From Clostridiales bacterium (GTDB lineage: Bacteria; Bacillota; Clostridia; Lachnospirales; Lachnospiraceae): a DNA stretch of 50,867 nt. The stretch spans positions 1 to 50,867 of the forward strand of contig JAQXIP010000088.1 in assembly GCA_029007845.1 (NCBI GenBank). Direction: 5' to 3'. The position numbers were made by a program, and so were the translations under genes. The number at the start of each line of letters is the position of its first letter. Positions within the stretch are counted from its first letter, which is position 1. The notes beneath the pieces were generated by a model, which worked only from the letters and a program-made list of their open reading frames with translations, did no database searches and had not been told where the DNA came from. Shown here in pieces: positions 1 through 11,713 of this stretch.

Positions 1-435
1 AAAAAAAGTAGATATGGACTAACCGCTTTAGTTGATTTATCCATTCATTCCAAAAACGAGCGGGTGGCGCTGAACAGTATTGCGGAACGCAACAATATTT
101 CTCCACAATATCTGGAACAGGTATTCGGCAGTCTTCGAAGGGCAGGAATCCTAAAAAGTATGAAAGGCTCCCAGGGAGGATATCTTCTGAATGACAGCCC
201 GGAAAAAATAACCGTGTCAGAAGTAATTGAAGCCCTGGAGGGGACCTATCACATTGCGGATGAGGATACCCCGCCAGACAGCGGTTCCCGTGGAATTTCC
301 GATGCGATCCAGACGGTGATTATTGATCCGGTAAATGGACAGTTAGATGATCTTTTAAAGAATATTACGCTGGCAGATCTTCAGAAAGTCTATCTTGAAC
401 GCGATAGTTACAGCGAGGATATGTATTATATATAG
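1..435 (+). CDS. Rrf2-family transcriptional regulator (5' truncated by window edge)
   Basis: The open frame runs from the first base with no start codon in view, so the N-terminus is outside the window; the GTG at 64 is internal. About 144 residues are visible. They carry the winged helix-turn-helix of Rrf2 proteins (SIAERNNISPQYLEQVF, then GILKSMKGSQGGYLL), followed by a dimerisation helix. The visible part has no cysteine, so the three-Cys Fe-S ligand set of IscR/NsrR is absent and the protein is closer in type to CymR, the cysteine-metabolism repressor of Bacilli (family knowledge). It lies 17 bp upstream of a sulfur/thiol operon, which supports a role in sulfur control. The paired dyad upstream of metY at 6504-6618 is a candidate target (inference). 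Family call is firm, ligand unknown. Confidence 0.88.
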   Translation, partial: KKSRYGLTALVDLSIHSKNERVALNSIAERNNISPQYLEQVFGSLRRAGILKSMKGSQGGYLLNDSPEKITVSEVIEALEGTYHIADEDTPPDSGSRGISDAIQTVIIDPVNGQLDDLLKNITLADLQKVYLERDSYSEDMYYI

Positions 436-452
436 ATCCGGAGGAAGCGGAC

Positions 453-1226
453 ATGTGTGAATTATTTGGTTTTAGTTCGAAAAACGAGAGATGCATTAAC
501 GATTACCTGAAAGAATTTTTCAGTCACAGCAAAAGACATCCCCATGGGTGGGGACTGGCGTGTTTTGACGGAAAGGAAGCCTTTGTTGAAAAGGAGCCTG
601 TCGCAGCAATAAAAAGCAATTATCTGAAGGAACGCCTGACACAGCCGGTTTATGTCAAAGCAGCATTTGCACATATCCGCTATGCCACGATCGGAAATGT
701 GGCATACAAGAACTGCCATCCATTTACGGGCAAAGATTCTGGTGGACGTCGCTGGACACTGGTGCATAATGGTACTATATTTGATTATTCTCCACTAGAT
801 GAATTCGTAAGAGTACAGGTGGGGGATACGGACAGTGAACGTGTTTTTCTGTATCTTATGAAGCTTATTCGTGAAAAAGAGGAAAAACTACATAGACCAC
901 TAACCGCACAGGAACGGTTTGAACTTCTCGATGAGATGGTAGTCCACATGTCCAGGGGAAATAAGCTTAACCTGCTCATTTACGATGGGGAATGGATGTA
1001 TGTTCACACCAACTATGCCAATTCCCTATATAGTCTTGAACAGTCGGATTCCGTCTTTTTCTCTACCGTTCCGCTTACCAGGGATGATTGGAAACCGGTG
1101 CCCTTTACGACCCTTTTAGCATATCAGGATGGAAAACTTTTGAAAAAAGGGACAAATCACGGACAGGAGTATATTGATTGTGATGAAAATGAAAAATTTC
1201 TTTATCAGATTTTTTCCGATTTATAA
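453..1226 (+). CDS. Class II glutamine amidotransferase, EgtC/YafJ-like
   Basis: This 257-residue protein begins Met-Cys, so Cys2 becomes the N-terminal nucleophile after Met removal, as in all class II (Ntn) amidotransferases. Other family marks are visible: HPHGWGLA, AHIRYATIGNV, NCHPF, the VHNGTI oxyanion motif and GDTDSE. No synthase domain is fused to it, so it is of the stand-alone YafJ/EgtC sort. EgtC removes gamma-glutamate from an ergothioneine intermediate. Here the next gene encodes a glutamate-cysteine ligase-like enzyme (12 bp gap) and the one after a PLP C-S lyase, so removal of a gamma-glutamyl group from a thiol adduct is a reasonable inference. A Shine-Dalgarno (CCGGAGGAAG) precedes the ATG. 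The substrate is not shown by the sequence. Confidence 0.85.
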   Translation: MCELFGFSSKNERCINDYLKEFFSHSKRHPHGWGLACFDGKEAFVEKEPVAAIKSNYLKERLTQPVYVKAAFAHIRYATIGNVAYKNCHPFTGKDSGGRRWTLVHNGTIFDYSPLDEFVRVQVGDTDSERVFLYLMKLIREKEEKLHRPLTAQERFELLDEMVVHMSRGNKLNLLIYDGEWMYVHTNYANSLYSLEQSDSVFFSTVPLTRDDWKPVPFTTLLAYQDGKLLKKGTNHGQEYIDCDENEKFLYQIFSDL

Positions 1227-1238
1227 GGAGTATACAGA

Positions 1239-2624
1239 ATGGAAGAACAATTAATCCGGGATCGGTTATATGAAAAATACATTGCACCAACCAGAAAGGA
1301 AAAACACAAGGATTACATTGGAATTGAAATTGAGATGCCAATTGTGAATCTGCGGAAGAAACCGGTGGATTTTAATGTGGTTCATGAGATTACCAGACAG
1401 TTTATGGAACATTTTTCCTTTCAGGCAGAAGGAAAGGATGAAGAAGGAAATATCTATTCTGCAGTGGATCATGTGACAGGAGACATTCTTTCTTATGACT
1501 GCTCGTATAATAATCTGGAATTATCTCTTGGAAAGGAAAAGGAACTGGGAGTTTTAAACAAGCGGTTTCGAACCTATTATTCCTTTTTAAAGGGCGAGTT
1601 TGAGAAACGGGATCATACCCTGACTGGAATGGGTATTAATCCATACCGCATGTACAATCAGAATATCCCCATCCCGAATGGACGATACCGGATGCTATTT
1701 CATCATTTACATTCTTATAAAAACTACGAGCTTCCTATGTATTTTCATTCTTATCCGGAATACGGAACTTTTTCCAGCGCATCCCAGGTTCAGATGGATG
1801 TATCTTATGAGGATCTGCTTGTCACTTTGGAGGCGTTTTCCCGTCTTGAACCGGTGAAAGCACTGTTATTCTCGAATTCGGTGCTGCTTGGTGAACATGA
1901 AGAACTGCTCTGTTTTCGGGACTGTTTCTGGGAAAACAGTACGCATGGAATCAACCCCCATAATATTGGAATGTTTGACTGCGAGTTTCATGATGTGGAA
2001 GAATTGCTTTCCTACATTGCGTCTACGAGTATCTACTGTGTAGAGCGGGATGAAAAGTATATTAATTTTCCTCCGGTTCCGATTATCGAGTATTTTCAGA
2101 AACCTTGGGTGACCGGTGAATACTATGAAGATGGAACGTATCATACAATCAAGGTGGTGCCAAGGATAGAGGATATTTCGTATCTGAGAACGTTTAAATT
2201 TGAAGATTTGACGTTCCGTGGAACGGTAGAATTCCGGAGTGTGTGCTGCCAGCCGGTGAAGGATAGTATGACTGTTGCGGCATTTCACGTAGGGCTGAAA
2301 GAAGAATTAGATTCCCTTTATCATCTTTTGAAGGAGGATCATGTCATTTATCGTCATGGTTATACCGCTTCGGAGCTTCGAAAGATGTTTGTAAAAAAGG
2401 AATTGCCTGGCTTTGTTAATCAGGAGAAGCTTTATGGACTCGTAAAAGAAATTCTAGATCTTGCAAATAAAGGATTGGTAAGCAGGGGATATGGAGAAGA
2501 GATTTTTCTAAAGCCATTGTACCGCCGTCTGGACGAGAGAACGAATCCGGCCCGGAAGTTACTGGAACTTCGGGATCAGGGGATTAGTCTGGAGAACCTG
2601 ATTTGGCAATATGGACAATTCTAA
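1239..2624 (+). CDS. Glutamate-cysteine ligase-like protein (GCS2/EgtA type)
   Basis: A 461-residue protein of the carboxylate-amine ligase superfamily. The N-terminal GIEIEMP strand supplies the acidic metal/ATP ligands typical of glutamate-cysteine ligases; ASQVQMDVSYED and FRGTVEFRSVCCQP are further conserved blocks. Length fits GCS2/EgtA proteins (about 400-460). The expected reaction is ATP-dependent joining of the glutamate gamma-carboxyl to the cysteine amine, giving gamma-glutamylcysteine. No glutathione synthetase domain is fused and no gshB lies in the window. It is preceded by an EgtC-like amidotransferase and followed by a C-S lyase, suggesting that a gamma-glutamylcysteine adduct is made, deglutamylated and cleaved (inference). 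Another amine acceptor than cysteine cannot be excluded. Confidence 0.78.
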   Translation: MEEQLIRDRLYEKYIAPTRKEKHKDYIGIEIEMPIVNLRKKPVDFNVVHEITRQFMEHFSFQAEGKDEEGNIYSAVDHVTGDILSYDCSYNNLELSLGKEKELGVLNKRFRTYYSFLKGEFEKRDHTLTGMGINPYRMYNQNIPIPNGRYRMLFHHLHSYKNYELPMYFHSYPEYGTFSSASQVQMDVSYEDLLVTLEAFSRLEPVKALLFSNSVLLGEHEELLCFRDCFWENSTHGINPHNIGMFDCEFHDVEELLSYIASTSIYCVERDEKYINFPPVPIIEYFQKPWVTGEYYEDGTYHTIKVVPRIEDISYLRTFKFEDLTFRGTVEFRSVCCQPVKDSMTVAAFHVGLKEELDSLYHLLKEDHVIYRHGYTASELRKMFVKKELPGFVNQEKLYGLVKEILDLANKGLVSRGYGEEIFLKPLYRRLDERTNPARKLLELRDQGISLENLIWQYGQF

Positions 2625-2666
2625 AGCGGAAATTATCCGGTTATCAATATACGAGGAGAATACGGT

Positions 2667-3833
2667 ATGGGATATGATTTTGATACAGTGATTGAACGAA
2701 GAGGAACCAATTCCATAAAATATGACTTTGCAAAGGAGTGGGGAAAAACAGAAGATGTTCTGCCTCTGTGGGTGGCGGATATGGATTTTCCCACTGCACC
2801 GGAGATTCTCAACCGGCTGGAACAAGTAGTACGCCATGGGATTTTTGGGTATAGTGAAGGAAAAGAGGCATATTTTCAGGCGGTATCCGGCTGGTACAAA
2901 AAACAGTTTGGCTGGGAAGTAAAGAGAAGCTGGCTGATTAAAACACCGGGCGTTGTATTTGCCATCTCTGCAGCAATCAGGGCATTTACCGGGGAAGGAG
3001 ACGGAGTACTGATCCAGCAGCCGGTATATTATCCGTTTTCGGATGTGGTTACCGATAATAAACGGAAGCTGGTCATCAGTCCGCTGAAATTTGTGAATGG
3101 ACATTATGAGATGGATTTTGAGGACTTTGAGGAGAAAATCAAATCGAATGGCGTGAAGTTATTTATTCTCTGTAATCCCCATAATCCGGTTGGCCGTGTC
3201 TGGAAAGAATGGGAACTTCGGAAAGTGGGCGAGATCTGCTTAAAATATGGAGTTCTGGTTGTGAGCGACGAGATTCACAGTGATTTTGTATATCCCGGAC
3301 ACAAGCATCTGGTCTTTGCCTCTTTGTCACCACAGTTTTCCGATATGACCATTACCTGTACTGCGCCAAGTAAGACCTTTAATCTGGCAGGACTTCAGAT
3401 CTCGAATATTTTTATACCAAATCAGACGATCCGGCGGAAGTTCCGGAAAGTCATTGATGCAGTCGGTTACAGCCAGGTAAATGTGATGGGACTTACCGCC
3501 TGTCAGGCGGCTTATGAAGAAGGAGAGGAATGGCTTTGCCAGTTAAAGGAGTATCTTCTTCATAATCTGGATTTTTTAAGAAACTATTTAAAAGAGCATA
3601 TTCCTCAGATTGATCTGATTGAGCCGGAGGGAACTTATCTTGTATGGCTGGACTTTCGGAAACTGGGGCTTTCGGAAGAAGAACGGGAAAGAATGCTTTC
3701 CGACAAAGCAAAACTCTGGCTGGATAGCGGTGCGATGTTCGGAGAAAACGGGGAAGGGTTTGAGAGAATGAATATTGCATGTCCTAGGGAAACCCTTTTG
3801 AAGGCACTCAGACAACTGGAAGCTGCAATTTAA
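2667..3833 (+). CDS. PLP-dependent C-S beta-lyase, PatB/MalY family
   Basis: A 388-residue fold-type I aminotransferase-like enzyme. The start resembles PatB/MalY proteins (IERRGTNSIKYDF, then LWVADMDFPTAPEI). The cofactor aspartate region is VVSDEIHSDF and the PLP lysine lies in APSKTFNLAGLQ at about residue 236. Family members cleave cystathionine or cysteine S-conjugates to a thiol, pyruvate and ammonia. EgtE, which ends the ergothioneine pathway, is also a PLP C-S lyase. In this operon it could release sulfide or a thiol from a cysteine conjugate prepared by the two upstream enzymes, or act in ordinary cystathionine turnover. A 42-bp gap with a GAGGAG site precedes the ATG. Confidence 0.87.
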   Translation: MGYDFDTVIERRGTNSIKYDFAKEWGKTEDVLPLWVADMDFPTAPEILNRLEQVVRHGIFGYSEGKEAYFQAVSGWYKKQFGWEVKRSWLIKTPGVVFAISAAIRAFTGEGDGVLIQQPVYYPFSDVVTDNKRKLVISPLKFVNGHYEMDFEDFEEKIKSNGVKLFILCNPHNPVGRVWKEWELRKVGEICLKYGVLVVSDEIHSDFVYPGHKHLVFASLSPQFSDMTITCTAPSKTFNLAGLQISNIFIPNQTIRRKFRKVIDAVGYSQVNVMGLTACQAAYEEGEEWLCQLKEYLLHNLDFLRNYLKEHIPQIDLIEPEGTYLVWLDFRKLGLSEEERERMLSDKAKLWLDSGAMFGENGEGFERMNIACPRETLLKALRQLEAAI

Positions 3834-3902
3834 GGATTGCGCTTCCATGACGGTCATGGTATGCTTTTATGGCAGCTTTATTTGAAAAAAGAGGAGATTC
3901 TA

Positions 3903-4892
3903 ATGAAAAAAATAAATGTACAATTATTTGGCGCTGCCCTTGTGGTAGCTTTGCTTTTGTCAGCAGGATGTGGAAGAACCGACGATTCTATGGCAGGAAA
4001 ACAGACAACGCTTCCTTCGTCGGAAAGCACTGCGAAAAATAATCAGGAAGTGACTTTTCAGGATGATTTAGGCCGGGAGGTGACTGTGAAAAATCCACAG
4101 CGGGTTGCGGTGCTTATTGGAAGTTTTACGGATGTGTGGCTGCTTTCCGGTGGAAAGGTGGCTGCGACAGCCAATGATTCTTGGGAAAGTCTGAATCTGG
4201 AACTGGGAGAAGATGTGGTAAACCTGGGAAGCATTATGGAACCGGATGTGGAGCAGCTGATTGCCGCAGAGCCGGATTTCGTGATTGCAAGTACGAATAC
4301 TGATGCGGATCTGGAACTTGAGGATACACTGACGAAGCTTGGGATACCGGTTGCCTATTTTGATGTATCTAATTTTGATGATTACCTTCATATGTTAAAA
4401 ATCTGTACGGATATTACAGGACGTAAAGATTTATATGAGAAAAATGGAGAAAAGGTTCAAAAGCAGATCCAGGAACTGAAAAAAAGGGTGGATCATTCAC
4501 AACCTACCGTATTATTTTTACGGGCATCTTCCACGGGTGTAAAAGCTAAGGGGAGTGAAGGAAATGTCTGTGGTGAGATGCTTAAGGATCTGGACTGTAT
4601 CAATATTGCAGACAGTGATGACAGCCTGTTGGATGATCTGAGTATGGAAGCGATTGTAGAAGCAGATCCGGAGTATATTTTTGTGACGGTTCAGGGAAAT
4701 GACATGGATGCTGCTATGAAAAATGTAGAAGAACTGCTTACTTCGAATCCGGCCTGGGCATCTCTTCGTGCGGTGAAGAAAAACCAATACTACGTAATGG
4801 ATAAGTTATTGTTTAATCTGAAGCCAAATGCCCGATGGGGAGAGGCCTATGAACAGCTTGTGGATATTTTGTATCCGGAAGGGCAGCGCTAA
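3903..4892 (+). CDS. ABC transporter substrate-binding lipoprotein, cobalamin/iron-siderophore type (orphan)
   Basis: The ATG at 3903 follows AGAGGAG and gives MKKINVQLFG, a hydrophobic stretch and a lipobox (LLLSAGCG), so this start is preferred over upstream in-frame codons. About 329 residues remain. The mature part is a class III periplasmic-binding fold: FQDDLGREVTVKNPQRVAVL is the usual first strand, with later EPDVEQLIAAEPDFVI. Such proteins bind siderophores, heme or corrinoids and feed a BtuCD-type transporter. No permease or ATPase gene is nearby, so its partner must lie elsewhere. It sits 18 bp upstream of a siroheme synthase, which suggests supply of iron or a tetrapyrrole (inference). 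Ligand specificity is not readable. Confidence 0.85.
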   Translation: MKKINVQLFGAALVVALLLSAGCGRTDDSMAGKQTTLPSSESTAKNNQEVTFQDDLGREVTVKNPQRVAVLIGSFTDVWLLSGGKVAATANDSWESLNLELGEDVVNLGSIMEPDVEQLIAAEPDFVIASTNTDADLELEDTLTKLGIPVAYFDVSNFDDYLHMLKICTDITGRKDLYEKNGEKVQKQIQELKKRVDHSQPTVLFLRASSTGVKAKGSEGNVCGEMLKDLDCINIADSDDSLLDDLSMEAIVEADPEYIFVTVQGNDMDAAMKNVEELLTSNPAWASLRAVKKNQYYVMDKLLFNLKPNARWGEAYEQLVDILYPEGQR

Positions 4893-4910
4893 GAAGGAAG
4901 GAAAGTGCAT

Positions 4911-6269
4911 ATGGGATATTTTCCGTTTTTTATTGATGTAGAAGGAAGGAACGGGCTGATTGTAGGCGGTGGCAAAGTTGCAGGGCGGAAGATAAGAAAG
5001 CTGTTGCCTTTTGGTGCCCATCTAACGGTAGTTGCTCCGGTTGTCCTTCCGCAGATAAAGAAAATGCCCGGGGTTTTGGTAAAGGAACGGGAATTTCGCG
5101 ATGAGGATATGAAAGACTGTACGTTTGTCATCGCGGCATCGGATGACCGGGAATTAAACCATCGCATCAGCCAGCTTTGTAAGGAACAGAATGTTCTCGT
5201 GAACGTGGTGGATGATAAAAAGACCTGTAGTTTTTTATTCCCTGCACTCCTAAAACGGGGAAGTTTTACTGCCGGAATATCGACGGAAGGTGTCAGCCCT
5301 CAGATTGCTGCGTCAGTCCGAAGTAAAATGGAGGAAGAACTGCCCGGGCAGATGGAATCGATTCTTGGTTATCTAAAAGAATTGAGGGAGAATGTCAGAC
5401 AATCCATACCGGATGGAAGTCTTCGGGGAAAATTTCTGAAAGAAGCTGCACTTCTTTGTATGGAAAAAGACCGACCGCTAACTGTTGAAGAGGCAAAAGG
5501 TTTGTTTGTTTCCTGTGAAAACAGTGCATCGGTTACAGGGAAAAAAAACGGGACTGTTGTGTTAGTGGGAGCCGGCTGTGGTCCGGCTGACTATATTACT
5601 GTCCGCGGGTTAAATGAGATCAGAAAAGCCGAAGTATTAGTTTATGATGATCTGATGGATGAGAAGCTTTTAGACCATGCGTCAGAGAGCTGTGAAAGAA
5701 TTTATGTCGGAAAACGGATGGGAGTTCACAGCATGAAGCAGGAGGAGATTAATGCTCTGCTGATCCGGAAAGCGCAGGAGGGGAAACGAGTAGTCCGGTT
5801 AAAAGGTGGAGATCCGTTTGTGTTTGGACGAGGCGGTGAAGAAATCCAGGCACTCCACAAGGAAGGAATTGATACTGCACTTGTGCCAGGAGTTACTTCG
5901 GCAGTCTGTGTACCGGCGTTAGCTGGAATTCCGGTAACCCACCGGGGATTAAGCCGTAGCTTTCATGTCATTACCGGTCATACTGCGGATCGTGATGACA
6001 GTCTGCCAGAGAATCTGGATACGATTGCTGCATTGGAAGGAACCTGTATCTTTTTAATGGGGCTTTCCAATATACAAGCGATAACCGATCAGCTCATAGC
6101 TCATGGAAAATCCCCGGATACCCCGGCAGCAGTTGTTCATGGAGATTTTAATGGAAAAAGTATATCTGTTCGTGGGACACTCAGAGAAATCGCAAAAAAG
6201 ACAAAAGAAGTGAAGATCCCTTCTCCTGCTGTCATTGTGGTGGGGGAAACCGCCGGGATAGAACTTTAA
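4911..6269 (+). CDS. cysG: Bifunctional siroheme synthase: precorrin-2 dehydrogenase fused to uroporphyrinogen-III methyltransferase
   Basis: The ATG at 4911 has the AAGGAAGG site at a good distance; an in-frame GTG lies two codons earlier. The N-terminal third (about residues 1-150) starts FPFFIDVEGRNGLIVGGG, the NAD-binding core of precorrin-2 dehydrogenase (Met8p/SirC/CysG-B). From about residue 205 comes a SUMT domain: VGAGCGPADYITVRG, YVGKRMG, RLKGGDPFVFGRGGEE and VPGVTSA. The order is that of Escherichia coli CysG and the length (453) is close to it. The product converts uroporphyrinogen III to sirohydrochlorin and probably siroheme. Siroheme is the cofactor of the sulfite reductase at 7919, encoded in the next operon. 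A terminator follows at 6285. Confidence 0.92.
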   Translation: MGYFPFFIDVEGRNGLIVGGGKVAGRKIRKLLPFGAHLTVVAPVVLPQIKKMPGVLVKEREFRDEDMKDCTFVIAASDDRELNHRISQLCKEQNVLVNVVDDKKTCSFLFPALLKRGSFTAGISTEGVSPQIAASVRSKMEEELPGQMESILGYLKELRENVRQSIPDGSLRGKFLKEAALLCMEKDRPLTVEEAKGLFVSCENSASVTGKKNGTVVLVGAGCGPADYITVRGLNEIRKAEVLVYDDLMDEKLLDHASESCERIYVGKRMGVHSMKQEEINALLIRKAQEGKRVVRLKGGDPFVFGRGGEEIQALHKEGIDTALVPGVTSAVCVPALAGIPVTHRGLSRSFHVITGHTADRDDSLPENLDTIAALEGTCIFLMGLSNIQAITDQLIAHGKSPDTPAAVVHGDFNGKSISVRGTLREIAKKTKEVKIPSPAVIVVGETAGIEL

Positions 6270-6503: not shown

Positions 6504-6532
6504 ATAATTCCTATTGACAAAATAGGAATTAT
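6504..6532. promoter_or_regulatory. Perfect 12-bp inverted repeat overlapping promoter 1 of the metY operon (candidate operator O1)
   Basis: ATAATTCCTATT (6504-6515) and AATAGGAATTAT (6521-6532) are exact reverse complements around GACAA. The dyad overlaps the -35 hexamer at 6514 and most of the spacer, a position that would block RNA polymerase. The core TTCCTA-N9-TAGGAA recurs at 6596-6616. The bound factor is unknown; the Rrf2 regulator at 1-435 is the nearest candidate. Confidence 0.75.
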
Positions 6533-6542
6533 GTCATATAAT
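6514..6542 (+). promoter_or_regulatory. Promoter 1 of the metY operon
   Basis: TTGACA at 6514-6519 and TATAAT at 6537-6542 are both perfect consensus hexamers with a 17-bp spacer. Transcription would start near 6549, about 110 bases upstream of metY. The region 6324-6500 before it shows nothing I can name beyond small TGATCA palindromes near 6440. Confidence 0.85.
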
Positions 6543-6567: not shown

Positions 6568-6596
6568 TTGACAAAGATCAGGAGCAGTGCTACTAT
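6568..6596 (+). promoter_or_regulatory. Promoter 2 of the metY operon
   Basis: TTGACA at 6568-6573 and TACTAT at 6591-6596, spacer 17 bp. The -10 box touches the left half of the second dyad, so the layout (promoter plus dyad) is repeated within 90 bp. Confidence 0.6.
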
Positions 6597-6618
6597 TCCT
6601 ATAGAATAAGTAGGAATA
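6594..6618. promoter_or_regulatory. Second dyad, candidate operator O2
   Basis: TATTCCTA (6594-6601) and TAGGAATA (6611-6618) are reverse complements. The core TTCCTA-N9-TAGGAA has exactly the same half-site spacing as O1, which argues that both bind one dimeric regulator. It lies over the -10 and start region of promoter 2. Confidence 0.7.
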
Positions 6619-6657: not shown

Positions 6658-7884
6658 ATGGAATTCAATACAAAATTATTACATGGTAATGCTGTTAAAA
6701 ATTATGCAGATGGTGCAACGGTTCCACCCATTAGCCAGACAAGTGCGTTTTCTTATGAAACGGCAGAAAAATTAGAAAAGGTATTTAATAATAAAGCACC
6801 GGGGTACGCATATACACGAATCGGCAATCCGACAGTAGATGCATTTGAAAGGAGAGTCTGTGAACTGGAAGGTGGAAAGGGAGCAGTTGCCTGTGCTTCG
6901 GGAATGTCTGCGGTTACCCTTTCCTTGCTAAATATTTTAAGTGCCGGCGATGAGATTATTGCAGGAAGCGGTCTGTTCGGGGGAACGATTGATCTTTTTT
7001 CTGACTTAAAGCAATTTGGCATTACAACCAGATTTGTTAGTAAAGTGACAGTTGAAGAAATTGAGCCGCTGATTAATGAGCATACGAAGGCAGTATTTGG
7101 AGAAGTGATCAGTAATCCAAGCCTGGACGTCATTGATATCCGCTCAGTGGCAGACTTTGTACATAGCAAAGGGATACCTCTGATCATGGACAGCACAACG
7201 GCGACCCCTTATGCAGTCCGCCCATTTGAACATGGCGCAGACATTGTGGTTCATTCCTCATCGAAATATATTAATGGTGGAGGAAATTCCATCAGTGGTA
7301 TCATTGTGGACAGTGGGAACTTCCAGTGGGATGTATCCCGTTACAATGGATTTGAGAAATACAAAGTATATGGAAGTTTTGCTTATCTGGCAAAGCTTCG
7401 TAACGGTATCTGGCGCAACATGGGTGGATGCCTTTCTCCGACGAATGCTTTTTTAAACCTGGTAGGACTGGAGACACTGGGACTTCGTATGGAGCGGATA
7501 TGCAGCAATTCCTATGAACTGGCACAGGCTCTTGGAAGGTTAGATGGAGTGTCAGTTCATTATCCGGGGCTTCCGGACAGTCCATACAAGGAACTGGTGG
7601 ACCGGCAGTTAAATGGACTTGGCGGAGGAATTATAACCATACAGGTGGGCTCTAAGGAACGTGCATATCAATTGCTGAACTCGTTAAAATATGCGCTGAA
7701 TGCTACGAATATTGGTGATTTACGAACACTGGTTATTCATCCGGCATCAACGATTTATACCCATAGTACAAAAGAACAAAAAGAAGCGGCAGGAGTGCAG
7801 GAAGACACCATCCGCATCAGCGTAGGAATTGAGGATGTTCAGGATCTGATAGACGATTTTACCCAGGCGGTAGAGTCATTATAA
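6658..7884 (+). CDS. metY: O-acetylhomoserine (thiol)-lyase, MetY family
   Basis: A 408-residue Cys/Met-metabolism PLP enzyme. Visible marks are the N-terminal NTKLLHGN and PPISQTSAFSYE, the substrate-loop YAYTRIGNPT, the ACASGMSAV cofactor motif, IMDSTTATP with the cofactor Asp, and HSSSKYINGGG with the PLP lysine (Lys203). Length and the GGGNSISG segment fit O-acetylhomoserine sulfhydrylases better than cystathionine gamma-synthases. It makes homocysteine from O-acetylhomoserine and a sulfur donor. The operon downstream encodes a ThiS-like carrier with its activator and protease, so the donor is probably the carrier thiocarboxylate, as described for MetY of Wolinella succinogenes. The AGGAG site at 6645 supports the ATG. 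First gene after two dyad-controlled promoters. Confidence 0.9.
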   Translation: MEFNTKLLHGNAVKNYADGATVPPISQTSAFSYETAEKLEKVFNNKAPGYAYTRIGNPTVDAFERRVCELEGGKGAVACASGMSAVTLSLLNILSAGDEIIAGSGLFGGTIDLFSDLKQFGITTRFVSKVTVEEIEPLINEHTKAVFGEVISNPSLDVIDIRSVADFVHSKGIPLIMDSTTATPYAVRPFEHGADIVVHSSSKYINGGGNSISGIIVDSGNFQWDVSRYNGFEKYKVYGSFAYLAKLRNGIWRNMGGCLSPTNAFLNLVGLETLGLRMERICSNSYELAQALGRLDGVSVHYPGLPDSPYKELVDRQLNGLGGGIITIQVGSKERAYQLLNSLKYALNATNIGDLRTLVIHPASTIYTHSTKEQKEAAGVQEDTIRISVGIEDVQDLIDDFTQAVESL

Positions 7885-7918
7885 AAGAAACAGGATTTCG
7901 TGCGAAGGAGGATAAAAT

Positions 7919-8782
7919 ATGGCAACAGATTATGCGACACTGAAAAAAGGCGGTTTTATGAGGCAGAAGCAGAAAAATCATTTTTCGCTGAGACTGCGGG
8001 TGGTAGGTGGGAATCTTACCGCAAAGCAGCTGGCTAAAATCGCCCAGGTATCGGAGAAATATGGAGACGGTTATGTACACCTTACTTCCCGCCAGAGTGT
8101 GGAGATTCCATATATCAAGCTGGAACAGATTGATGATGTGAAAAATGCACTGGCCGAAGGGGATGTGGAGCCGGGGGTGTGCGGACCGAGAGTCCGTACT
8201 ATTACTGCATGTCAGGGAAAAGCAATCTGCCCAAGCGGGTGTATTGATACTTATGCGCTGGCAAAGGAACTGGATGATCGCTATTTTGCAAAAGAATTGC
8301 CTCACAAATTCAAATTTGGAATCACTGGCTGTCAGAATAACTGTCTGAAGTCGGAGGAAAATGATGTGGGCATTAAAGGCGGCATCAAAGTAGAGTGGAT
8401 TAAAGACAAATGCATTCAATGCGGGGTATGCGTGAAAGTCTGCCGTTCTGGTGCCATAGAACTTAAGGACGGGAAGATTTCGCTGGATCAGGAGAAATGT
8501 AATTTCTGTGGAAGATGTACAAAATCCTGCCCGGTAGATGCCTATCAGGAAACCGAAGGATATATTGTGTCTTTCGGAGGGCTGTTTGGCAACCGCATTA
8601 ATAAAGGTGAAACCGTGATTCCTTTTATTGAAGATCACGATACGTTGTTAAAAGTCTGCGACCGGGCAATCCGCTTTTTTGAAAAAAATGCATTGCCGGG
8701 GGAACGGTTTAAATTCACGATTGACCGGGTAGGAAAAGAAGTATTTGAAAAAGAGATTAAGGAGGCATATGAAAATGGCTGA
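7919..8782 (+). CDS. Small siroheme/4Fe-4S sulfite reductase with ferredoxin domain
   Basis: This 287-residue protein has the nitrite/sulfite reductase half-domain near the N-terminus (HFSLRLRVVGGNLT; YVHLTSRQSVEIPY). The siroheme-4Fe-4S cysteines are visible as Cys98-X5-Cys104 and Cys138-X3-Cys142 (ACQGKAIC; GCQNNC). Two CxxCxxCxxxC clusters follow (from Cys165 and Cys194), typical of a 2[4Fe-4S] ferredoxin insert. This one-domain architecture matches AsrC-like and small anaerobic sulfite reductases, which reduce sulfite to sulfide with six electrons. Siroheme would come from cysG upstream. Sulfide release beside the sulfur-carrier genes suggests the product is channelled to HcyS. It overlaps the next gene by eight bases. 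Electron donor not known. Confidence 0.88.
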   Translation: MATDYATLKKGGFMRQKQKNHFSLRLRVVGGNLTAKQLAKIAQVSEKYGDGYVHLTSRQSVEIPYIKLEQIDDVKNALAEGDVEPGVCGPRVRTITACQGKAICPSGCIDTYALAKELDDRYFAKELPHKFKFGITGCQNNCLKSEENDVGIKGGIKVEWIKDKCIQCGVCVKVCRSGAIELKDGKISLDQEKCNFCGRCTKSCPVDAYQETEGYIVSFGGLFGNRINKGETVIPFIEDHDTLLKVCDRAIRFFEKNALPGERFKFTIDRVGKEVFEKEIKEAYENG

Positions 8783-9020
8783 TATTCACATTGATGATTA
8801 TGTAGATATTACGGATGTGGTATGTCCGGTTACTTTTGTAAAGGCAAAGGTGGCACTGGAGGAACTGGATGATGGACAGGTATTATCGGTAAAACTCAAT
8901 GATGGCGAGCCGGTGCAGAATGTACCCCGCAGTATGAAAGAGGAAGGACATCAGGTCTTGAAATTAACCGAAAATGGAGATGGCACCTATGAACTGCTGG
9001 TGAAAAAAGTTGGAGATTGA
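8775..9020 (+). CDS. TusA-family sulfur-transfer protein
   Basis: The ATG at 8775 lies nine bases after AAGGAGG; an earlier in-frame ATG at 8769 is too close to that site. The product is 81 residues, the usual size for TusA. The hallmark cysteine is present in DVVCPVTFVKAK, but the family CPxP motif reads CPVT. TusA proteins carry sulfur as a persulfide on that Cys and pass it to acceptors. Its place between sulfite reductase and the HcyS system suggests it moves sulfur to the carrier or its activator (inference). It shares its first eight bases with the reductase gene, indicating translational coupling. Confidence 0.85.
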   Translation: MADIHIDDYVDITDVVCPVTFVKAKVALEELDDGQVLSVKLNDGEPVQNVPRSMKEEGHQVLKLTENGDGTYELLVKKVGD

Positions 9021-9041
9021 TATAGCGTAATAGGAGGTTTT

Positions 9042-9359
9042 ATGGCAGAACGGTTGGATTACAGTGGTTTTGACCAAAAAGTGCTTGGAGGCAAGGGACT
9101 CTTTCTTGTGGATTTTTATTCCGACAGCTGTGTTCCGTGTAAGCGGATGTCTCCGGTTCTTGCAGAATTAGAGGAAAAATATGGAGATAATCTGCAAGTT
9201 GTAAAGGTCAATATTGCTTATGAAACGGATTTAGTAGAGAAATATCAGGTTACGGCAGCACCTACTTTATGCCTTTTTAAGGATGGTGTGGAGATTGAAA
9301 GACGGACAGGCGTCCAGAAAAAAGCTGATCTGGAAAAAATCATTGAAGAAAACAAATAG
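9042..9359 (+). CDS. Thioredoxin-like protein with CVPC active site
   Basis: A 105-residue thioredoxin fold: VDFYSDSCVPCKRMSPVL holds the redox pair, and the cis-proline motif is AAPTLCLFKDG. The active site reads Cys-Val-Pro-Cys with Ser in front, where classical thioredoxins have WCGPC; losing Trp and Gly usually changes redox potential. A thioredoxin reductase is encoded at the end of the same operon, so the two likely form a dedicated couple, perhaps reducing disulfides or persulfides formed during sulfur transfer, or feeding the sulfite reductase (inference). RBS TAGGAGG precedes the ATG. Confidence 0.9.
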   Translation: MAERLDYSGFDQKVLGGKGLFLVDFYSDSCVPCKRMSPVLAELEEKYGDNLQVVKVNIAYETDLVEKYQVTAAPTLCLFKDGVEIERRTGVQKKADLEKIIEENK

Positions 9360-9371
9360 GAGGATATGGGA

Positions 9372-9578
9372 ATGAAGATTACAGTTGCTGGAGAAACAAA
9401 GGAAGTAAAGGATGGAATTACAATTGCCCAGTTGATTACAGAGGAACAGGTTGAGACTCCGGAGTATGTTACCGTTTCGGTAAATGATGAATTTGCCAAA
9501 AGTGAGAATTTTGAAACGCAGGTATTAAAAGATGGAGACAACGTGGAGTTTCTTTATTTCATGGGAGGTGGTCAGTAG
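9372..9578 (+). CDS. ThiS/MoaD-like sulfur carrier with masked C-terminus (HcyS-like)
   Basis: The ATG at 9372 is eight bases after GGAGG; the ATG at 9366 is too near. The 68-residue product has the ubiquitin-like pattern of ThiS (MKITVAGETKEV, VSVNDEF, DGDNVEFLYFMGGG). The end is Gly-Gly-Gly-Gln: one residue follows the di-glycine that must be exposed before adenylation. A JAMM protease two genes downstream would trim it, as described for HcyD/HcyS in Wolinella and Mec+/CysO in mycobacteria. The E1-like gene starts within its stop codon. No thiamine or molybdopterin genes are near, so a role in homocysteine synthesis is preferred. Confidence 0.88.
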   Translation: MKITVAGETKEVKDGITIAQLITEEQVETPEYVTVSVNDEFAKSENFETQVLKDGDNVEFLYFMGGGQ

Positions 9579-10384
9579 TGGCATTTTCAAATGAACAGTT
9601 AGAGCGGTATTCTAGACATATTATATTGAAAGAAGTAGGTGCAAAAGGACAGAAGAAGCTTTTGAATGCAAAAGTTCTGATTATTGGCGCAGGCGGGCTT
9701 GGTGCTCCGGCTGCTATGTATCTTGCTGCAGCGGGGGTAGGAACGATCGGAATTGCGGATGCAGATGAAGTAGATTTATCAAATCTGCAGCGTCAGATTA
9801 TCCATGCAACAGAAGATCTGGGAAAGGCGAAGGTGCAGTCGGCAAAAGAGACGATGAACCGGATGAATCCGGATGTAACGGTGAATACGTACCGTACCTT
9901 TGTTACATCAGAAAACATTATGGATCTGATTGCAGATTATGATTTTATTATTGATGGAACCGATAATTTCCCGGCAAAATTCTTGATTAATGATGCGTGT
10001 GTGATGGCAAAGAAACCATTTTCCCATGCGGGAATTATCCGGTTCAAAGGACAGCTTATGACTTATGTACCGGGGGAAGGACCTTGCTACCGCTGTGTCT
10101 TTAAAGATCCACCACCGAAGGATGCCGTGCCTACCTGTAAGCAGGCTGGTGTAATCGGTGCAATGGGTGGCGTGATCGGTAGTCTCCAGGCTATGGAAGC
10201 AGTTAAATATATCCTGGGAGTTGGTGACCTGCTTACAGGATATCTGTTAACTTATGATGCATTGAAAATGGAATTTAGGAAAATCAAGCTGCCGACGGAT
10301 ACTTCTGGCTGCGCAGTGTGTGGCGATCATCCAACGATTACAGAACTGATTGATTATGAACAGGCAGAGTGTGAAGGAGTCTGA
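9578..10384 (+). CDS. E1-like sulfur-carrier adenylyltransferase (ThiF/MoeB/HcyF-like)
   Basis: A GTG start at 9578 overlaps the TAG of the carrier gene by one base and has GGAGG nine bases upstream. The 268-residue protein shows the ThiF/MoeB core: RYSRHIILKEVG, the nucleotide loop IIGAGGLGAPAA, the DADEVDLSNLQRQI segment, TDNFPAKFLIND, two zinc CxxC pairs (CYRC and CAVC) and the Cys in PTCKQAGVIG. It should adenylate the exposed C-terminal Gly of the carrier so that sulfur can form the thiocarboxylate. There is no C-terminal rhodanese domain, so sulfur must come from elsewhere, perhaps the TusA-like protein or sulfide. Its genetic fusion with the carrier gene leaves little doubt about partnership. 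Confidence 0.92.
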   Translation: MAFSNEQLERYSRHIILKEVGAKGQKKLLNAKVLIIGAGGLGAPAAMYLAAAGVGTIGIADADEVDLSNLQRQIIHATEDLGKAKVQSAKETMNRMNPDVTVNTYRTFVTSENIMDLIADYDFIIDGTDNFPAKFLINDACVMAKKPFSHAGIIRFKGQLMTYVPGEGPCYRCVFKDPPPKDAVPTCKQAGVIGAMGGVIGSLQAMEAVKYILGVGDLLTGYLLTYDALKMEFRKIKLPTDTSGCAVCGDHPTITELIDYEQAECEGV

Positions 10385-10388
10385 AACA

Positions 10389-10802
10389 ATGATTAAAATC
10401 CGAAGAGAAGATTACGATAATATCATCCGGCATGCAAGAAAGGAACTGCCCAATGAAGCATGTGGACTGATTGCAGGAACCGTAACCGGAGAGGATAAAG
10501 TAATTGAAAAAGTATATTTTCTTACAAACATAGACCATTCCAGGGAACATTTTTCCCTGGATCCAAAGGAACAGTTAGAGGCGGTCAAGGATATGCGTGC
10601 GAATGGATTAAAGCCTCTTGGAAACTGGCATTCTCATCCGGAAAGCCCTTCCAGACCATCAGAGGAAGATAAGAGACTGGCCTATGACAGCAGTGCAAGT
10701 TATTTGATTTTGTCTCTGTTAGAACCAGAACACCCGGTTCTTAATTCCTTCCATATCAGTGGAGAGGTGTCAGAAAAAGAAGAGCTGCAGATTAAGGAGT
10801 GA
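10389..10802 (+). CDS. JAMM/MPN+ metalloprotease (HcyD/Mec+-like)
   Basis: Translation most likely starts at the ATG at 10389, nine bases after GGAG. The 137-residue protein has a complete JAMM zinc site: Glu23 in LPNEACGLIAG and HSHPESPSRPSEED, i.e. His81-x-His83-x10-Asp94. Proteins of this type cleave peptide bonds after Gly-Gly of ubiquitin-like carriers. In this operon the natural substrate is the Gly-Gly-Gly-Gln tail of the carrier at 9372. It could instead act after sulfur transfer, as Mec+ does when it frees cysteine from CysO. MetY rather than a CysM-like synthase in the operon favours tail removal (inference). Confidence 0.9.
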   Translation: MIKIRREDYDNIIRHARKELPNEACGLIAGTVTGEDKVIEKVYFLTNIDHSREHFSLDPKEQLEAVKDMRANGLKPLGNWHSHPESPSRPSEEDKRLAYDSSASYLILSLLEPEHPVLNSFHISGEVSEKEELQIKE

Positions 10803-10807
10803 TTACC

Positions 10808-11713
10808 ATGTTGGATATTCTGATCATAGGCAGCGGCCCGGCAGGGCTGTCTGCTGCAATCTATGGGAAACGGGCGAATCTGAACGTTTTAGTAGCAGAA
10901 AAGGAATATCTTGGAACGGGACAGATTGCAGAAAGTGGTCTTGTGGACAATTATCTCGGAATTGCTGAAATCACCGGGTATGAACTGGGAGAAAAATTCC
11001 GGGAACATGCGGAAAAACTGGGTGTAGAGTTTTACGAAGGAGAAGCCCGCCAGTTTGAGCCGCAAACAGATGGATGGAAAGTGCATTTTGATAATGGAAC
11101 CGTACTGGAGACGAAAACGGTAATTTATTGCGCTGGTGCAGCTCACCGTCATCTGGATGTGCCGGGGGAAACAGAATATTCTGGAAAAGGAGTTTCCTAT
11201 TGTGCGTTATGTGATGGAGCCTTTTATAAGGATAAAGTAACGGCGGTAATCGGAGGAGGAAACACCGCTTTGGATGATGCCCTGTATCTGTCTGAAATCT
11301 GTAAAAAAGTGTATCTGATCCACCGGAGAAGTGAATTTCGAGGTTCTGCCAAAACACTGGAGAACATCCGAAAACGGGATAATATTGAGGTTATAACAGA
11401 TGCACAGGTTGCTTCCATATCAGGAGAACAAAAAGTCAATGGGATTATTTTGAAAGACGGTCAGAAGATTGCTGTGGATGGCGTGTTTGTTGCAGTCGGG
11501 ATGATTCCACAGACGAAGGGGGTAGAGGGTGTAGTATCCCTGGACGAGAGCGGATATATCGCAGCGGATGAGACAGGGAAAACGTCGGCGGCTGGATTGT
11601 TTGCGGCGGGAGATGTGCGGACAAAGAAGTTCCGGCAGGTCGTCACAGCAGTTTCTGACGGTGCTAATGCGGCAGTGGCTGCGGCAGAGTATTTGAGTCA
11701 TTTTGCAAAATGA
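10808..11713 (+). CDS. trxB: Thioredoxin reductase (NADPH, FAD)
   Basis: The ATG at 10808 is eight bases after AAGGAG at 10794. The 301-residue enzyme shows the FAD motif IIGSGPAGLSAAIYGKRA at the N-terminus, the redox disulfide CALC (SYCALCDGAFY), the NADPH loop IGGGNTALDDA and the late FAD motif GLFAAGDVR. It reduces thioredoxin with NADPH. As the last gene of the sulfur operon it is probably the partner of the CVPC thioredoxin at 9042. YCALCDGA differs from the E. coli CATC only at one inner residue. A strong terminator follows. Confidence 0.92.
   Translation: MLDILIIGSGPAGLSAAIYGKRANLNVLVAEKEYLGTGQIAESGLVDNYLGIAEITGYELGEKFREHAEKLGVEFYEGEARQFEPQTDGWKVHFDNGTVLETKTVIYCAGAAHRHLDVPGETEYSGKGVSYCALCDGAFYKDKVTAVIGGGNTALDDALYLSEICKKVYLIHRRSEFRGSAKTLENIRKRDNIEVITDAQVASISGEQKVNGIILKDGQKIAVDGVFVAVGMIPQTKGVEGVVSLDESGYIAADETGKTSAAGLFAAGDVRTKKFRQVVTAVSDGANAAVAAAEYLSHFAK

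Follow-up and report, generated by a model that had tools for sequence, protein, structure and literature searches.

We have analysed the 50,867-nucleotide contig JAQXIP010000088.1, which is one entire contig of a Lachnospiraceae metagenome-assembled genome (MAG; GCA_029007845.1, G000; 88% complete) and is referred to below as the window. Close to its beginning it encodes a class II glutamine amidotransferase (GAT2) and a ligase (GCS2) with the fold of plant-type glutamate-cysteine ligases. Across GCS2 loci, the conserved set consists of these two genes and a true glutamate-cysteine ligase of the PF04262 family (GCL), and the C-S lyase gene that follows them in the window is merely a chance neighbour. 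We give about even odds to the proposal that the GCL-GAT2-GCS2 cassette makes a modified gamma-glutamyl-cysteine thiol, glutathione-like and undescribed, with GCS2 as the second ligase. This role of GCS2 is argued from its linkage with GCL, a GCL-GCS2 gene fusion, the co-occurrence of both genes across genomes, the absence of the GshF-type ATP-grasp domain and a set of residue replacements in GCS2.

The GCL-GAT2-GCS2 cassette

The open reading frames that concern us first are adjacent and co-directional, each with a good ribosome-binding site, as had been noted in a first-pass annotation of this DNA:

453..1226, + strand, GAT2, stand-alone class II glutamine amidotransferase of YafJ/EgtC fold, core member (PF13230, 3.6e-37)
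1239..2624, + strand, GCS2-like ligase, new subfamily of the plant-type glutamate-cysteine ligase fold, core member (predicted fold)
2667..3833, + strand, PatB-family pyridoxal-phosphate-dependent C-S lyase, passenger (TIGR04350, 486 bits against a cut-off of 340)

That annotation saw in them an EgtA/C/E-like trio, in which the PatB lyase would free a thiol from a gamma-Glu-Cys adduct of an unknown acceptor. The three genes do adjoin each other in the window, and PatB is a real member of its C-S lyase family, but linkage elsewhere speaks against them as a functional set. A scan of the species-genome collection found GCS2 in 306 stretches, and 80 loci were retained from these; linkage was counted over 92 GCS2 loci, with PatB scored within 8 kb of the ligase. 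One of the loci (L077) comes from a cultured strain, Eubacterium oxidoreducens DSM 3217. GAT2 occurs near GCS2 in 86 of the 92 and GCL in 69, against five for PatB. The three genes are thus rarely together in other genomes, which the annotation itself had named as evidence against its scheme, and the trio as a unit was rejected on linkage; because of the same counts we regard PatB as a passenger and GCL as the real third member. In line with the annotation, neither EgtB (PF03781) nor EgtD (PF10017) has a match in the 88%-complete G000, with positive controls, and none of the recurrent neighbours stood out as another sulfoxide-synthase-like partner. Taken together, the lyase scheme is very improbable. 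The resemblance to the ergothioneine EgtA-E system is limited to an EgtC-fold class II amidotransferase adjoining a GCS2-superfamily ligase; the present system differs in the absence of EgtB and EgtD, in a ligase that is not EgtA, in a lyase that is not conserved and in a true partner that is a PF04262 GCL. What survives of the earlier proposal is the plausible idea of an anaerobic gamma-glutamyl-cysteine pathway, with its members and its ergothioneine logic wrong. Likewise, conservation in Lachnospiraceae and an accompanying extra gene, which it had suggested to look for, were found for GAT2-GCS2 (there and beyond) with GCL as the companion, whereas PatB is not conserved and GCL is absent from the window.

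Other recurrent neighbours of GCS2 encode Rrf2 regulators (18 loci), MetY (16) and CysK (14). The order GCL-GAT2-GCS2 prevails (49 of 85 non-duplicate loci), and GAT2-GCS2-GCL is found in nine. In most loci only a few tens of bases separate the end of GAT2 from GCS2, and in some the genes overlap. One clade, made up of Lachnospiraceae bacterium AC3007 and two relatives, has GCL and GCS2 as a single fused gene, with PF04262 at the N-terminus and GCS2 at the C-terminus. The best model for the cassette GCL is PRK02471, and the protein is nearest to the N-terminal half of GshF. Mirror-tree correlations (GAT2-GCS2 0.81, GCL-GCS2 0.80, GCL-GAT2 0.86) do not set the core pair apart.

Of 299 genomes from the family of the window's MAG, 12 carry GCS2, each belonging to a different genus. 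Eight of these 12 possess GCL, which occurs in 22 of the 299 overall (Fisher p 9e-8), and where GCL does not adjoin GCS2 it lies elsewhere in 12 of the 18 genomes reached through such loci. The nearest relatives of the window follow this pattern, with GCL elsewhere in the genome for L013, L014, L054, L055 and L062 and none seen for L061. The GshF-type ATP-grasp synthetase domain (PF18419, ATP-grasp_6) was detected in none of 21 cassette genomes. A partial literature search found no account of a GCL-GAT2-GCS2 cassette.

Two further observations concern the loci themselves. A protein of about 200-206 amino acids, matching nothing in Pfam or NCBIfam, recurs beside the cassette (L013 7444-8064, L015 8884-9504, L021 12881-13501, L121 and L130), sometimes accompanied by an M20-like peptidase. 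A 'Bacteroidales' MAG (L078) has a Lachnospiraceae-type cassette and is probably a case of a mis-binned contig.

The GCS2 and GAT2 proteins and the proposed pathway

At 1e-3 the GCS2-like ligase matches no Pfam family, and in NCBIfam it hits the plant GCL model TIGR01436 just weakly (48.7 bits, cut-off 463.15). Its AlphaFold model (pLDDT 94) is best matched among solved structures by plant GCL 2gwc (Z 38.6, 2.9 A, 419 residues), followed by YbdK (Z about 31) and the GshA group (Z about 20-23). It shares with the plant-type enzyme both the fold and the catalytic Glu/Arg set (E30, E32, E94, R227, E331 and R333), but differs by a sequence identity of about 21%, by N242 and C336 in every member and by its usual occurrence alongside a separate, true GCL. 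GCS2 is a separate subfamily within this fold.

Residues were compared between 56 cassette GCS2 proteins and six true plant-type GCLs. The cassette proteins retain G28, E30, E32, E94, R149, Y150, Q183, R227, W231, E331 and R333. Four replacements, D to N239, R to N242, R to T325 and D to C336, are present in all 56; C267 stands in place of a phenylalanine of the true GCLs (histidine in one), and the same loop carries a four-residue insertion. The D-x-x-R-(T/S) loop and the R-x-x-D motif, with D, R and D in all six true GCLs, are thereby lost in 56 of 56 cassette proteins. Because the paired charges are lost and the catalytic core is retained, the alignment suggests a GCS2 that no longer activates free glutamate. 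The description of the ligase as EgtA-like did not hold: several residues fixed in true GCLs are missing, and these swaps, together with the co-occurrence with a true GCL, disfavour GCS2 as EgtA or as the sole maker of gamma-Glu-Cys.

The signature N242 and C336 persists even in more distant relatives (about 27-34% identity), which belong to other families of the phylum and have no GAT2 or GCL neighbours. Other GCS-family ligase genes adjoin a MATE transporter in L175, L176 and L134 (Selenomonas plasmid pSRC2); the ligases of the former two bear N242 and C336, and that of Selenomonas looks like a true GCL.

GAT2 matches PF13230 with 128 bits (cut-off 23) and has every catalytic and gamma-glutamyl-binding position of class II enzymes; across 25 homologues, C2, R76, G107, T126 and D127 are invariant and N106 is almost invariant. 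The fold of its AlphaFold model (pLDDT 93) is tied between YafJ (1te5, Z 24.9) and EgtC (4zfk, Z 24.9), but the EgtC equivalog model TIGR03442 gives 57.9 bits against a cut-off of 218.65. A sequence search of the PDB returned YafJ 1te5 at 8e-23 and listed no EgtC entry. By sequence, YafJ is the closest solved relative, and like YafJ and yeast Dug3, GAT2 is a stand-alone class II amidotransferase; it differs from them in being tied to a ligase gene, and M20 peptidases, the partners of Dug3, are rare near it. GAT2 may be either a glutaminase that supplies ammonia to GCS2 or a gamma-glutamyl hydrolase. A precedent for the former is GatB with GatA, in which an enzyme of the GS superfamily is fed by an amidase subunit.

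In the pathway that we propose, GCL would first join glutamate and cysteine to gamma-Glu-Cys, as expected from its family; in the window's species this enzyme would be encoded elsewhere in the genome, or its gene is missing from the MAG. GCS2 would then use ATP to activate a carboxylate that does not belong to free glutamate, in the simplest case that of the cysteine in gamma-Glu-Cys, for a second amide bond, and so would fill the role of the ATP-grasp domain of GshF. GAT2 would most likely serve GCS2 with ammonia from glutamine, giving gamma-Glu-Cys-amide, or else another amine would be the acceptor and yield another gamma-Glu-Cys derivative. Amidation in particular, with gamma-Glu-Cys-amide as the product, is a doubtful though reasonable guess. 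The cassette shares with GshF and GshA-GshB a first bond made by a GCL of the GshF N-terminal type and a linked second ligase, fused in one clade, but its second enzyme has the GCS fold instead of ATP-grasp and a class II amidotransferase is added. Anaerobes are already known to have one amidated glutathione-like thiol, the glutathione amide of Chromatiaceae (Bartsch 1996, as cited in PMC7278568); there, glycine is amidated, and we found no description of a biosynthetic gene.

Two readings would assign a hydrolytic role to GAT2. In one, which we hold to be unlikely, GCS2 couples the cysteine carboxylate of gamma-Glu-Cys made by GCL to an amine, and GAT2 strips the protecting gamma-glutamyl group to leave a bacillithiol-like Cys-X. 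EgtC removes gamma-Glu in this manner during ergothioneine synthesis (PMC10805701), the GAT2 fold is equally near EgtC and YafJ (Z 24.8-24.9 each) and the class II gamma-glutamyl recognition residues are invariant. The score far under the EgtC cut-off and the failure of the PDB sequence search to return EgtC speak against it, and the tight GAT2-GCS2 adjacency, kept even where GCL is lacking, suits a ligase-glutaminase pair at least equally well. In the other, somewhat less likely still, gamma-Glu-Cys serves as a store of cysteine, made by GCL with GCS2 as a second gamma-glutamyl ligase and hydrolysed by a Dug3-like GAT2 when cysteine is scarce. Here the cysteine-regulon context described below fits, a YafJ-like amidotransferase is plausible as a gamma-glutamyl hydrolase, fungal glutathione degradation involves class II amidotransferases of the Dug3 type (PMC9012958) and an M20-like peptidase adjoins GAT2 in L013 and L056. 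Such M20 neighbours are rare, however, and a second ligase would be redundant with GCL, yet GCS2 is present more constantly than GCL, and one clade has the two genes fused; moreover, the residues fixed in true GCLs are replaced in GCS2.

Sulfur-assimilation genes and candidate operators in the window

The cassette genes of the window belong to a co-directional sulfur-assimilation array that runs from the Rrf2 gene at base 1 to approximately 11.7 kb. Besides the three genes given above, it contains:

1..435, + strand, Rrf2-family regulator, CymR/IscR-like, 5' end truncated by the contig edge (PF02082, 1e-32)
3897..4892 (start possibly 3837), + strand, Peripla_BP_2 substrate-binding lipoprotein (PF01497, 2.4e-35)
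4905..6269, + strand, siroheme synthase, CysG-like (PRK10637, 423 bits against a cut-off of 400)
6506..6530, no strand, perfect palindrome AATTCCTATTGACAAAATAGGAATT, candidate Rrf2/CymR-type operator (0 mismatches, 0.01 expected by chance)
6595..6617, no strand, second candidate operator copy ATTCCTATAGAATAAGTAGGAAT, 63 nt ahead of metY
6658..7884, + strand, MetY-like O-acetylhomoserine sulfhydrylase (TIGR01326, 5.8e-126; PF01053)
7919..8782, + strand, small NIR_SIR sulfite reductase with ferredoxin domains (PF01077, PF03460, Fer4)
8745..9020 (true start probably further downstream), + strand, TusA-like sulfur carrier (PF01206, 2.4e-20)
9042..9359, + strand, thioredoxin-like protein (sequence reading, CVPCK motif)
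9366..9578, + strand, ThiS-like carrier with C-terminus MGGGQ (sequence reading)
9578..10384, + strand, ThiF/MoeB-like E1 activating enzyme (sequence reading; the L065 homologue matches MoeB/ThiF models)
10350..10802, + strand, JAMM protease, Mec+/HcyD-like (sequence reading: HSHPESPSRPSEED)
10799..11713, + strand, thioredoxin-reductase-like flavoprotein (sequence reading)

The palindrome at 6506-6530 overlaps a consensus metY promoter (TTGACA-17-TATAAT, 6514-6542), and other cassette loci have the same operator-like motif upstream of cysK or GCL. Altogether, nine near-perfect copies are present in cassette loci versus about one in shuffles, and seven of the nine lie no more than 350 nt upstream of GCL, CysK or MetY genes, where 0.1 would be expected. 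Because of these palindromes and the nearby Rrf2, cysK and metY genes, the cassette likely belongs to a cysteine regulon under Rrf2/CymR-like control, and in the proposed pathway it would respond to cysteine through such a regulator. The Rrf2 protein of the window scores 101 bits against the CymR model, under the equivalog cut-off of 195. PatB, the siroheme synthase, the sulfite reductase and metY of the window would be co-regulated sulfur-assimilation neighbours. An Rfam scan found no riboswitch, its sole match being a tRNA.

The part of the array at 6658-11713 (MetY, NIR_SIR, TusA, thioredoxin, ThiS-like, ThiF and JAMM) resembles the protein-thiocarboxylate route to homocysteine, known from Wolinella (as cited in PMC5764234). 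Compared with that HcyS/HcyF/HcyD-type route, the array of the window additionally has a siroheme synthase and the thioredoxin-reductase-like protein.

Methanogens and the weight of the evidence

Outside anaerobic gut bacteria, the cassette occurs in methanogenic archaea of the gut. Among 79 Methanobacteriaceae genomes, GCS2 was found in 31 (approximately 40%), GCL in 38 and glutathione peroxidase in 32. GCS2 and GCL are together in 27 genomes, i.e., in 27 of the 31 carriers (p 1.4e-8), with the order GAT2-GCS2-GCL in several. Glutathione peroxidase is encoded by 23 of the 31 GCS2-carrying methanogens versus nine of the 48 others (p 1e-6), and in a Methanosphaera MAG (L126, 7435-8932) two glutathione peroxidase genes and a flavodoxin-like gene are located directly upstream of GAT2. 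This co-occurrence and adjacency suggest a redox role for the cassette. Several of the carrier genomes are single contigs, and contamination of MAGs therefore does not explain their cassettes. Twenty methanogen GCS2 sequences form one clade (SH-aLRT 99) nested within bacterial sequences, so the simplest account of the tree would be one transfer of the cassette from bacteria to methanogens.

A review (PMC7278568), in the passages concerned, lists a GshA homologue without synthetase in Methanosphaera stadtmanae (Msp_0528) and in Methanobrevibacter as a likely gamma-glutamylcysteine ligase. This Msp_0528 GshA is the same GCL as in the cassette, and those passages do not mention linked GAT2- or GCS2-like partners.

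Glutathione peroxidase and flavodoxin-like genes are likewise near upstream of GAT2-GCS2 in G314, G315, G368, G383, G386 and G334. A 21st sequence from the methanogen family (L161, G319) stands separately in the tree, in a bacterial-looking MetY-GCS2 locus, and may come from a mis-binned contig. In G341 (C1:647660-649017, L156; a single contig of 2,937,203 bp) GCS2 is split across two frames, with GAT2 and GCL intact; the split is a frameshift or a sequencing error.

A broader proposal, to which we give slightly under even chances, is that one dedicated low-molecular-weight thiol, so far undescribed, is common to Lachnospiraceae and host-associated Methanobacteriaceae. This thiol, for instance gamma-Glu-Cys-amide, would be made by GCL, a new GCS-fold second ligase and a class II glutaminase, and would serve redox defence in these strict anaerobes together with glutathione-peroxidase homologues.

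Several points count against a gamma-glutamyl-cysteine-derived thiol. No PF04262 match was found in the window's own MAG, nor in G007, G164 and G223 (91-98% complete), which carry GCS2; the pair can therefore exist without GCL. Conversely, 11 methanogens and 14 genomes of the family have GCL without GCS2, so that gamma-Glu-Cys alone may be sufficient for some GCL carriers. The methanogen co-occurrence partly reflects shared ancestry, with 20 rows forming one clade. Which of the swapped residues of GCS2 would touch the substrate is presumed, not read from a ligand-bound model. The thiol product itself is predicted from the genes.

Carriers with no detectable GCL would also suit a glutamine-dependent GAT2-GCS2 amide ligase acting on a non-thiol carboxylate, with GCL co-selected only via shared sulfur regulation, and distant GCS2 relatives beside MATE transporters or ribosomal genes point the same way. 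Against this stand the GCL-GCS2 fusion, the strong co-occurrence in two domains of life and the linkage to operators and cysK, and we regard such an activity as improbable.

If GCS2 is indeed the second ligase of a modified gamma-glutamyl-cysteine thiol, this would account for methanogens having a GshA homologue but no glutathione synthetase, and GCS2 would represent a new subfamily of ligases whose GCS fold replaces ATP-grasp. The three-gene marker is common to rumen bacteria and methanogens, is tied to cysteine regulation and glutathione peroxidase, and makes the question of a redox thiol testable in culturable strains.

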